Assembly (NCBI GenBank): GCA_030426515.1
Contig: JAUHYM010000006.1
Span: 1-43,649, forward strand
Direction of reading: 5' to 3'
Length of the DNA stretch: 43,649 nucleotides
DNA from: Actinomycetes bacterium
Lineage (GTDB): Bacteria > Actinomycetota > Actinomycetes > Actinomycetales > Microbacteriaceae
This document shows positions 39,870 to 43,649 of the stretch, in pieces. Numbering within the stretch: position 1 is the first letter of the stretch; every line of letters begins with the position of its first letter. The notes under the pieces were generated by a model that did no database searches, had not been told where the DNA came from, and worked only from the letters and a program-made list of their open reading frames with translations. A program made the position numbers and the translations under genes.

Positions 39870-42020
39870 ATGGGGGATGCGGCGACGCCGGCACCTGTCG
39901 TGCGACTGTCGGGCGCACTGTCGCTCACCGCGATCTCGGTCGAGGGCATCGACCGGCGCGCCGAGGCCCGACGCCTGGCCGTGCCGGTCGCGCGGCTCAT
40001 CTTCACGGTGACCGCCTCGGCCCTCGGTGACGGAGACTCGGTGCTCCGCCTGTCGTTCCCGCGGCCGGGCGAGCGGGCCCTGCTGCGCGTCGTCTGCCGC
40101 CGCGGCACGCGGGTCACGGTCCACCGCCTGCGGGTCGACGACCAGACGGTCACGGCCGACCTTCCGGCGATGACGACGGGCGAGATCGCCGTCCTCTCGC
40201 TCCTGCGCTTCCCGACCGTCATCGCGGCGGCCGCGTTCGGTCGCGTGCCCCTGCCGGGCGCCGGCCAGATGCCGCCGCGACTGCCCCTCCCCCGCCCGGA
40301 CCGGATCGGCGGTCTACGCTCGGCGCCGCCGCCGGGCGTCCCCGACGGCGATGGCCTGGAGATGCCTCGCTTCCTCGAGCCGCCCGAAGAGGCAGCACCC
40401 GCACCGGTCGAGATGGCTCCGCCGGAGGAGGCGTTCGAATCCGCACCCCCGCCGGTGCCCGTGCCCCCGGCGCCGCACACCGAGACGCCGCAGACACCTG
40501 TCCGTGAGCCCGCCCACATCGACGCCGAAGTGCCCGCGAGCATCCCGGTCGAGCGCGAGGTCCCGCTCGTCGTGCGCCTGTCTCGCGACCGGCTCGAGGC
40601 GACACCGGGCCGCGCGCGCGACGACGCCGTCATCCCGGTCGATCCGACGCGTCCGGTCATCGTGACGGTCGCCCTGCGCGGGATCCGCCTGGCCGAGGGC
40701 GCGCACCGCACGCGCCGCCTGCGCCTGCCGGACGCCGGGGCTGCGCCCGCGACGGCGACCTTCCGCCTGATCGGCGTGGATGCCGGCGAGGCCGACGTCT
40801 CGGTGATCGTGCGCCAGGAGCCGGTCGAGCTGCCGCTGGCGACGCTCCGGCTGCGACCGACCGTCACCGCGCAGGGTTCGGCGGACGCGGCGCCGCTGGT
40901 GGCCGCGACCGCGGCTTCGGCCCGCCCCGCGCAGGTCGCGGAGCTCCCGACGCTGCGCGTGGATGAGGAGCTGGCCGGCGGGCGGTCTGTGCTGCACATC
41001 GCGGCGGTGATCGGGCAGGAGCGTGCCGAAGGACGCGTCGAGATCGGCGACAAGGCAGCGTTCGTCGACCGCGTCTACGCGCGTCTGCAGGGCATCGCCT
41101 CTCGGGTGGAGGCGATCCGGGATGCCGAGACCCGCCGCGCCGAGACCGAGCGACTCGTCCGCCGGTACGGTCAGGCGCTCGCCGACAGCCTGCTGGGCCC
41201 AGACGTGCGCGCGCTGCTGTGGCGGCATCGCGCCGAGGTGACCTCACTGCTGCTGCAGACCTCCGCCGAGATCGACCTGCCGTGGGAGGTCGTGCACCTG
41301 CGCCCGCCGGAGGGCGAGGACGACGGGAGAACCCACTTCCTCGCCGACCTCGGCCTCCTGCGCTGGGTGTACGACACCGCGCGCCCACGGCGCATCGCCG
41401 TCCACAGCGCGGTGGCCCTCTGCCCGGAGTACGAGGACAAGAGCCTGCGCCTGGCCCGCACCGCCGAGGAGGTCGCCGCGCTGCGGACCCATCTCGCGGG
41501 CGACCCGGTCTCTCCGATCGGCGTGCCCGAGGTCCGCTCGTGCGTGCAGAACGGCTTCGATCTGCTCCACTTCGCCGGCCACGGCCGCTGGAGCGATGCC
41601 GAGCCCATCGGGCAGCAGCTGCTGCTGGCCGCCTTCTCCCCCGGCGCCGCCGAGGGCGTGTACGCCGACCGCGACGTCCGCGCCGATCTGACGACCGCCA
41701 GCCGCGCATCCCACGCCCCTCTGGTGTTCCTCAGCGCGTGCGACGTCGGCCGGCTGCGCTCCGGGGCCACCGGGACCGGCGGCTTCGCCGAGGCGTTCCT
41801 GCGCGGTGGCGCCGGCGCGTTCATCGGCTGCGGCTGGGCGGTGCGCGACGACGTCGCCTCGGAATTCGTCCGCGTGTTCTACGACGCCGCATTCGGTGCG
41901 GACCTCGACCTCGCCGCCGCCACGCGGCAGGCCCGCGATGCCGCCCGGCGCGCGGGCGACCTGAGCGGACTGGCCTATGCGGTCTTCGCCGATCCCCGTA
42001 CTCACCTGACCACGACCTGA
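39870..42020 (+). CDS. CHAT-domain protease with N-terminal beta-rich repeat regions
   Basis: ATG 39870 MGDAATPAPVVRLSGAL...; C-terminal CHAT signature DLLHFAGHGRW ... APLVFLSACDVGRL ... GGFAEAFLRGGAGAFIGCGWAVRD. Confidence 0.85.
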   Translation: MGDAATPAPVVRLSGALSLTAISVEGIDRRAEARRLAVPVARLIFTVTASALGDGDSVLRLSFPRPGERALLRVVCRRGTRVTVHRLRVDDQTVTADLPAMTTGEIAVLSLLRFPTVIAAAAFGRVPLPGAGQMPPRLPLPRPDRIGGLRSAPPPGVPDGDGLEMPRFLEPPEEAAPAPVEMAPPEEAFESAPPPVPVPPAPHTETPQTPVREPAHIDAEVPASIPVEREVPLVVRLSRDRLEATPGRARDDAVIPVDPTRPVIVTVALRGIRLAEGAHRTRRLRLPDAGAAPATATFRLIGVDAGEADVSVIVRQEPVELPLATLRLRPTVTAQGSADAAPLVAATAASARPAQVAELPTLRVDEELAGGRSVLHIAAVIGQERAEGRVEIGDKAAFVDRVYARLQGIASRVEAIRDAETRRAETERLVRRYGQALADSLLGPDVRALLWRHRAEVTSLLLQTSAEIDLPWEVVHLRPPEGEDDGRTHFLADLGLLRWVYDTARPRRIAVHSAVALCPEYEDKSLRLARTAEEVAALRTHLAGDPVSPIGVPEVRSCVQNGFDLLHFAGHGRWSDAEPIGQQLLLAAFSPGAAEGVYADRDVRADLTTASRASHAPLVFLSACDVGRLRSGATGTGGFAEAFLRGGAGAFIGCGWAVRDDVASEFVRVFYDAAFGADLDLAAATRQARDAARRAGDLSGLAYAVFADPRTHLTTT

Positions 42021-42036
42021 ACGACAGGAGATGACC

Positions 42037-43649
42037 ATGTCCGATGCCTCACTCACCGCCGAGCGCGGGTCGCACCTCACCCCGGCGCAGCTCGCCGCCC
42101 TCAAGCCGCACGTGATCAACACCGAAGACGGCGCGCTCGCCTCCCGCGGCCGCGCGCGTCCCGCCACGGTCGACGAGTTCGTGACCTCGGCGGCCGATGT
42201 GCGCAAGATCGTGCGCGAGCATCTGCCCGCGTTCATCGCCGAGCACCAGCCGGGCCCCGTGCCGGTCATGGTGTGGGCTCACGGCGGCCTCGTGTCGAAG
42301 GCCGCCGGGTTCGAGACCGCGCACACCCAGGTGCAGTGGTGGCGCGACAACGGCGTGTTCCCCCTCCACATGGTCTGGGAGACCGGCCTTCTCACGTCCG
42401 TCACCGATGCGGTCCGGCGCGCGTTGGGCTCCCGCGGCTTCACCGACTTCACCGACGGCCTCATCGAGACCGGCGCACGACTGCTGGGCGGTCGCCAGAT
42501 CTGGGAGGACATGAAGCTGGATGCCGCGGCGAACGCGCTCGACGACGGCGGCGCGACGGTGCTCGCGCGCGAGCTCGCGGCGTTCATGGCCGAGAACCCC
42601 GACGCCATCACTCTGCACGCGGTCGGACACAGCGCGGGGTCCATCTTCCACTCGCACTTCGTCCCGCGCGCGCTCGCCGAAGGCGTCCCCGAGTTCGAGA
42701 CCGTGTCGCTGCTGGCCCCCGCGGTGCGTCTGGACACCTTCGAGGCCACGCTGCTGCCCGCCGCACAGTCCGCGAAGATCCGCGACCTGTCGGTGTTCAC
42801 CATGACCGACCCGAAAGAGCGCGACGACAACGTGGCGGGCATCTACCGCAAGTCGCTGCTGTACCTCGTCTCGCGCGCGTTCGAGCCCGAGCGCGACGCG
42901 CAGATCCTCGGGATGGCCAAGCACCTGGATGCCAGCGCGCCCACGCGCGACTATCTGCGCGCCACCGACGATCGTCTGGTCCTCAGCCCGATCACCAACG
43001 GGCTTCGGCGCAGCAGCCTGGCGACCTCACACGGCGACTTCGACAACGACGGCCCCACGATGAACAGCGTCGCCCGCCGCGTCGCGGGACGCGACCGCAT
43101 CGAGGAGTACCCCACCGCGACGCGATCGGCACCGCCCGCCGACACGCTCGCACCCGCAACCGCACCGTGGCCGCCCGAGGCCACGACCGTCCCCGCGCCC
43201 GCCCGCGAACCCGCGCGTCGCGCCGTGTGCATCGGGGTGAACGCCTACCCCGAGCCCCAGGACCGTCTGGCCGGCTGCGTCCCCGACGCCGAGGCCTGGT
43301 CGCAGGCGCTGCGAGAGCGAGGCTTCGCGGTCGAGACGATGCGCGACGCCGAAGCGACGCGCGAGGCGATCCTCTCTCGTCTGCTCGACCTCGTCTCGAC
43401 CGCGGTGGCGGGCGACATCCTGGCCGTGCAGTTCTCCGGCCACGGCACACACGTGCCCGACCTGGACGGCGACGAGGTCGACAGCTTCGGCCCGCGCGAC
43501 GAGGCGATCTGCCCGGTGGATTTCCGCGAGGGCGGCCTCATCATCGACGACGACCTCGCCCTCATCTGGGACCTGATCCCCGAGGGCGTGTCGATGACCC
43601 TCTTCTTCGACTCGTGCCACTCAGGCACCGTCAGCAGGGGCGAGCCGAC
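42037..43649 (+). CDS. Alpha/beta-hydrolase fused to metacaspase-like peptidase C14 domain (3' end outside window)
   Basis: Manual translation of the open frame: MSDASLTAERGSHLTPAQL...VMVWAHGGLVSKAAGF...ITLHAVGHSAGSIFHSHF...LATSHGDFDND...RRAVCIGVNAYPEPQDRLAGCVPDAEAW...LAVQFSGHGTHVPDLDGDEVDSFGPRDEAICPVD...MTLFFDSCHSGTVSRGE; AGGAG 6 nt upstream of ATG 42037. Confidence 0.88.
   Translation, partial: MSDASLTAERGSHLTPAQLAALKPHVINTEDGALASRGRARPATVDEFVTSAADVRKIVREHLPAFIAEHQPGPVPVMVWAHGGLVSKAAGFETAHTQVQWWRDNGVFPLHMVWETGLLTSVTDAVRRALGSRGFTDFTDGLIETGARLLGGRQIWEDMKLDAAANALDDGGATVLARELAAFMAENPDAITLHAVGHSAGSIFHSHFVPRALAEGVPEFETVSLLAPAVRLDTFEATLLPAAQSAKIRDLSVFTMTDPKERDDNVAGIYRKSLLYLVSRAFEPERDAQILGMAKHLDASAPTRDYLRATDDRLVLSPITNGLRRSSLATSHGDFDNDGPTMNSVARRVAGRDRIEEYPTATRSAPPADTLAPATAPWPPEATTVPAPAREPARRAVCIGVNAYPEPQDRLAGCVPDAEAWSQALRERGFAVETMRDAEATREAILSRLLDLVSTAVAGDILAVQFSGHGTHVPDLDGDEVDSFGPRDEAICPVDFREGGLIIDDDLALIWDLIPEGVSMTLFFDSCHSGTVSRGEP

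Follow-up and report, generated by a model that had tools for sequence, protein, structure and literature searches.

To our knowledge, few functions of bacterial metacaspases have been established, and a metacaspase in physical linkage with a defined hydrolase and accompanied by a conserved second protease offers both a candidate in-cis substrate and a short, testable cascade. The last gene on a contig from an actinomycete of the family Microbacteriaceae (GenBank assembly GCA_030426515.1, contig JAUHYM010000006.1) suggests such an arrangement. Does this gene truly encode an alpha/beta-hydrolase and a metacaspase in one polypeptide, and, if so, how might one enzyme act on the other? We find that the fusion is real, conserved, and functionally coupled, and that the pattern of companion proteases surrounding it appears to be undescribed.

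A single reading frame at a contig end

The window analyzed here, a stretch of 43,649 nucleotides, is an entire MAG contig (G000:C24:1-43649) from a genome of 2.52 Mb that is divided among 230 contigs and is 73% complete. Coordinates below refer to this window, and all features described lie on its forward strand. The fusion gene (42,031-43,649) begins with an ATG at 42,031 and remains open to the last codon, yielding 539 amino acids from a gene of about 715 codons. Since the contig has no sequence outside the window, the assembly itself cuts the gene short, and its 3' part lies beyond the contig end. The first-pass annotation had correctly described a reading frame that reaches the end of the window, whereas the start that it gave, 42,037, must be moved to the ATG. 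The motifs that it quoted (VMVWAHGGL, AVGHSAGS, SHGDFDND, the Pro/Ala linker, DGDE, and DSCHSG) are all found in this frame.

A gene that reaches the end of a MAG contig could owe its joined domains to an assembly or annotation artefact. However, a single-contig genome of the same genus carries an intact, full-length homologue of 715 amino acids that is 53% identical across both domains. Furthermore, when 85,488 species genomes were scanned for the hydrolase domain, 229 relatives were recovered, and in 75 of the best 80 of these a caspase is encoded in the same frame as the hydrolase. The artefact explanation is refuted by these findings and can be given practically no credence, and the idea of both enzymes on one polypeptide, with neither a frameshift nor an assembly join between them, withstands scrutiny. 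When the full-length homologue was used as a query, no separate C-terminal piece of the gene was found in the 73%-complete genome of the window. The window protein thus joins a divergent alpha/beta-hydrolase to a metacaspase core through a Pro/Ala linker.

A divergent alpha/beta-hydrolase domain

The N-terminal domain (residues 1-353; 42,031-43,089) has no match of its own in Pfam, NCBIfam, or PDB sequence searches, and its identity was established through homology and structure prediction. A distant homologue, L015, matches the Pfam alpha/beta-hydrolase family DUF900 above the cut-off (E 1e-7), and the hydrolase family profile aligns with L015 by hhalign with an E-value of 4e-29; distant relatives also give a weaker Pfam match to Abhydrolase_6. 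The AlphaFold2 model of the domain is of high confidence (pLDDT 91.4, pTM 0.91). In a Foldseek search of the PDB with this model, the top matches are nearly all alpha/beta-hydrolases, lipases (TrLipB), YjfP, and cutinases. The best of these reaches an E-value of only 3.7e-3, so none passes 1e-3 and the fold is therefore divergent. Viral predicted structures, when searched, yielded no more than weak matches, most of them to lipase- or esterase-like proteins. The homology to DUF900 through L015, the model, and the PDB fold search together support its assignment as a divergent alpha/beta-hydrolase, and the serine-hydrolase fold that had earlier been assumed for the N terminus is borne out by the prediction. 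Lipase activity cannot be deduced from the fold, and the description of the enzyme as of lipase or esterase type is a proposal.

The predicted strands of the model (77-84, 110-116, 193-200, 222-228, 250-258, and 316-319) place the putative active site in the expected order. The HGG motif (residues 84-86; 42,280-42,288), a likely oxyanion hole, follows directly after a strand and is conserved in 87, 88, and 88 of the 88 aligned members on which all hydrolase active-site counts are based. The putative nucleophile, Ser201 of GHSAGS (42,631-42,633; 88/88), occupies the elbow that follows strand 193-200; the putative acid, Asp266 (42,826-42,828; 88/88, with Glu263 the next best candidate), comes soon after strand 250-258; and the putative catalytic His334 of SHGDFDND (43,030-43,032; 87/88) follows the last strand. 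In the model, Ser201-Asp266-His334 is a putative triad in canonical alpha/beta-hydrolase order with a nucleophile elbow. Of the two patterns used in the genome scan, one contained GHSAG, and HGxF was also among the motifs specified, so Ser201 and His334 are conserved in the scanned members partly through selection. Both residues are kept in eight aligned sequences, including six plasmid hits found without the patterns, and HGG84-86, Asp266, Trp158, Tyr272, Ser275, and Glu285, which are absent from the patterns, are near-invariant.

The linker and the metacaspase domain

A Pro/Ala-rich linker (about residues 354-393; 43,090-43,209) separates the hydrolase from the metacaspase p20 core (43,216-43,647), whose catalytic residues are His471 and Cys529. 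Pfam Peptidase_C14 matches residues 396-534 (E 3.7e-17), and metacaspases are the closest solved structures in a PDB sequence search (E 1.5e-18). The p10 part, which in the window would fall past the contig end, is present in the homologues L007 and L017. The full-length L017 model folds like GSU0716 (PDB 3bij; E 8.5e-16), the nearest solved fold to the caspase domain of this family; unlike the fusion, the solved chain of GSU0716, with 285 residues, has no hydrolase domain. The caspase catalytic His is found in 75 of 78 fused members and the Cys in 76 of 78. The domain is a metacaspase (clan CD), with a caspase fold and a His-Cys dyad from which catalysis is predicted. With catalytic residues conserved in both domains, the earlier picture of two apparently active enzymes holds at the level of sequence.

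The Cryobacterium copy (L039:6908-9031) has a degenerate caspase, in which DSYHSG replaces the catalytic Cys with Tyr and the His region is missing, and its M4-like neighbor is broken. Most actinobacterial members, among them L017, L018, L019, L022, L026, and L027, and also L011 carry behind the caspase a disordered tail followed by a conserved, FLRATADLLE-like C-terminal helix, a possible docking element that in the window would lie beyond the contig end; no match to this helix was found in other ORFs. A second, short metacaspase-like gene is located in the window's genome (L008:1338-2057; G000:C199), behind a membrane-protein gene.

Association of the hydrolase with cysteine proteases

The best 80 of the 229 relatives fall in 11 named phyla, to which a plasmid of Kovacikia adds Cyanobacteriota, for a total of about 12. 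The five exceptions to fusion among these 80 are L020, which is cut by its contig end, the stand-alone hydrolases L071 and L086 of Arthrobacter, which have no protease nearby, and L078 and L082, which have another C-terminal domain. Adding the window, its same-genus counterpart, and six loci from plasmids to the 80 brings the fused members to 78 of 88. An additional N-terminal Amidase_2 domain is present in 38 fused members, none of which belongs to the window's clade. In L078:218-3058 and L082:5891-8740, which encode amidase-hydrolase proteins, the domain that takes the place of the caspase ends in YHLEIP.

Loci recovered without patterns reveal three arrangements of the cysteine protease. 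Among tblastn hits on plasmids, all 16 loci examined include such a protease: one as a fused metacaspase, nine as a fused C1 papain-like domain that sits N-terminal of the hydrolase, and six as separate caspase genes directly downstream (the L180 caspase is spread over two frames and is possibly broken). A class-wide, pattern-free genome search likewise found a fused metacaspase or C1 domain in seven of seven genomes examined. On the evidence of these 16 plasmid and seven genome loci, the hydrolase can be said to have, almost without exception, a cysteine protease as its partner, drawn from two unrelated folds. A domain that goes unrecognized by Pfam in these proteins thereby acquires both an assigned fold and a protease partner that is nearly obligatory. 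No matches to the hydrolase were found in phage records.

Two hydrolases encoded by split genes (L014:7113-8549 and L015:7068-8540) contain, at the position of the loop around residue 130, a long insertion that is acidic in part. On pSymA of Sinorhizobium (L179:1050-7652), genes for a phage-type lysozyme, the hydrolase, a caspase, and a pYEATS protein lie in a row.

Companion genes for a second protease

The first-pass annotation left out both the wider family and the gene adjacent to the fusion. This gene (39,870-42,020) encodes a protein of 716 amino acids in which an N-terminal region is followed by DUF7363 (Pfam E 1.3e-26) and by a CHAT protease domain (E 2.8e-22) with His571 and Cys624. 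Its stop codon lies 10 bases upstream of the fusion ORF. Among companion CHAT domains, the catalytic His is kept in 20 of 20 and the Cys in 19 of 20, and the window copy is intact. The same pair occurs in L007 and L160 of the same genus and in L017, L018, L019, L021, L026, L046, L054, L070, L159, and others. In L022, L023, and L028 the CHAT and fusion proteins are encoded in one frame, and in L025 they are joined in the opposite order.

Within the fetched flanks of the 88 loci, a CHAT companion is found at 19, an M4-like companion at 49, and both at none, and the hydrolase tree requires at least four switches of companion type. The M4-like neighbor (for example, L059:9208-11127 and L027:5033-6916) has HExTH and HEAFAD motifs and no matches in Pfam, NCBIfam, or PDB sequence searches; it possibly represents an undescribed metallopeptidase family. 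In Hymenobacter (L066:9188-12607, L081, and L085), the gene after the amidase-hydrolase-caspase gene carries a C-terminal CHAT domain, and the L066 copy also gives a weak DUF7379 match.

Relation to described systems

The caspase domains of VMAP systems are always neighbored by an alpha/beta-hydrolase gene, and joint action of the two has been proposed (Kaur et al. 2020; PMC7159879). The VMAP ternary systems thus share the pairing seen here, although their partners are separate genes in a vWA-MoxR-VMAP system, whereas here they form one polypeptide with a CHAT partner. By the description given there, the window protein is a fused variant of this hydrolase-caspase pairing. No VMAP-C match was found in the window's genome (73% complete), and neither this hydrolase profile nor this caspase profile is present at 20 actinomycete VMAP-C loci, which thus provided no link of homology between the two hydrolases. 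Alpha/beta-hydrolases have also been listed among effector domains said to hydrolyze membrane lipids (Kaur et al. 2021; PMC8195603).

Four Amidase_2-metacaspase proteins, from Polaromonas, Nitrosococcus, Chitinophaga, and Desulfobacterium, have been reported (Asplund-Samuelsson et al. 2012; PMC3501461), and these probably belong with L053, L059, and L060 (Polaromonas) in one tri-domain family. The accessible part of that source makes no mention of an alpha/beta-hydrolase between amidase and caspase, and the window's clade differs in having no amidase and in having a CHAT companion. The Canu systems, which have a caspase-activated pro-nuclease from which proteolysis removes loops that block the active site (Tuck et al. 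2025; PMC12799240), offer a similar logic, in that a caspase-family protease is coupled to another hydrolytic enzyme for which gating by disordered loops is possible. The Canu pro-nuclease, however, is an MBL-fold protein encoded by a separate gene, and no nuclease was seen in the window's two-gene unit, the 3' flank of which lies beyond the contig. Craspase and gasdermin loci contain a CHAT protease with intact His and Cys, as does the companion gene; here CHAT is preceded by DUF7363, and no CRISPR or gasdermin gene was seen beside the pair. In the open-access literature searched, the fusion, the alternation of CHAT and M4-like companions, and the C1 swap are not described.

A proposed mechanism and its rivals

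The first-pass annotation had proposed that the metacaspase releases or activates the hydrolase by cutting the linker between them. The functional coupling of hydrolase and caspase that this implies is well supported in sequence comparisons by the conserved fusion, the split gene pairs, and the protease swaps, but the linker must be rejected as a conserved cleavage site. Although the linker holds Arg residues and is disordered in the L017 model, the stretch from the catalytic His to the caspase start ranges from 43 to 225 residues across the family, and its sequence is not conserved and has no common site, which argues against a conserved cut there even though cleavage itself may still occur. 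Furthermore, fusion of C1 at the opposite end and the existence of split genes make linker cleavage unnecessary, and release of the hydrolase by this route is therefore highly improbable.

Metacaspases generally cleave after Arg or Lys. A low-confidence loop within the hydrolase (residues 130-142; 42,418-42,456), recognized from a dip in pLDDT and from motif counts, has a near-invariant Arg at position 135 (72 of 88 members). On the strength of this conserved residue and the known preference of metacaspases, the loop is a better candidate cut site than the linker. In this loop, 78 of 78 caspase-fused members and seven of 10 others have a basic residue with a small one directly after it, the latter count making the contrast weak and a cut in the loop hypothetical. 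The only other stretch to reach 78 of 78 is 274-286, with a conserved K-S.

The recurrence of the pairing over about a dozen phyla suggests that the protease controls the hydrolase in a stress or defense system. We tentatively favor, at something approaching an even chance, a reading in which the tethered hydrolase is an effector that is released by proteolysis and attacks a cellular ester. The device would be intracellular and would consist of an alpha/beta-hydrolase, of lipase or esterase type, that is permanently tethered to its own metacaspase and made together with the CHAT protease. The hydrolase, as the most likely effector, would be held inactive by a loop close to its active site. A signal would switch on the metacaspase, perhaps through proteolysis by CHAT (or by the M4-like metalloprotease in other clades), and the metacaspase would cut the hydrolase, probably in loop 130-142 after the conserved Arg. 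The freed hydrolase could then attack a cellular ester, most simply a membrane lipid, with arrest or lysis as the outcome. This proposal is favored by the cysteine protease found in every pattern-free locus examined, the active sites kept in hydrolase, metacaspase, and CHAT alike, the single-frame fusions of CHAT to the metacaspase protein, the mutual exclusion of CHAT and M4-like companions, the conserved loop Arg, and the precedent of Canu. Against it, the loop Arg may instead be structural or bind substrate, the two Arthrobacter hydrolases stand alone, PADLOC found no enrichment of known defense genes among 99 flanking genes of CHAT-type loci, and the neighbors of the window's pair are rpoB and rpoC. 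A broader version, in which these proteins are widespread, undescribed, protease-gated hydrolase effectors, nearly always tied to a cysteine protease of caspase or papain fold (fused at either end or encoded by a split gene) and turned on by another protease (CHAT or M4-like) in a two-step cascade that leads to lipid or ester hydrolysis and cell death, is somewhat unlikely.

The roles could also be reversed, such that the protease acts as effector while the hydrolase, as sensor or regulator, binds or hydrolyzes a small ester or lipid-like signal and thereby switches the metacaspase on, with CHAT as a second executioner. Such a division of labor would fit the constancy of the hydrolase beside a varying protease partner (C1, metacaspase, or split caspase), but a full catalytic triad would be superfluous in a pure binding domain and the exchanged partners, instead of being effectors of diverse kinds, are cysteine proteases in every case; we consider it unlikely, if worth keeping in mind. 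More doubtful still is a lytic or degradative multi-enzyme that works on envelope or foreign material with no internal activation, in which the amidase would act on peptidoglycan, the hydrolase on lipid, and the metacaspase and M4-like protease on protein. The Amidase_2 domains of 38 members and the M4-like protease at 49 loci are in keeping with this idea, and a destructive weapon is suggested for one lipase-amidase-caspase protein in the accessible part of an earlier survey (Asplund-Samuelsson et al. 2012; PMC3501461). Yet inspection by eye revealed no evident signal peptide at the N termini of the window, L007, and L011 proteins, and no amidase occurs in the window's clade.

An accessory insertion beside rpoB

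The fusion gene is sparsely distributed among close relatives, being present in two of the 35 same-genus genomes of the relatives search (the window's and G032) and in eight of 300 family genomes, three of these eight being weak. In four genomes of the same genus, a gene for a small secreted protein comes after rpoB, and a peptide ABC transporter comes next. The window has the same small secreted-protein gene, followed by the CHAT gene and then by the fusion gene, with the right end of the site beyond the contig. The pair is therefore an insertion at this site, and thus an accessory element beside rpoB. The same-genus copy in G032 (L007:11-3860) adjoins McrBC genes, a single case of such a neighbor, and an integrase-type transposase gene.
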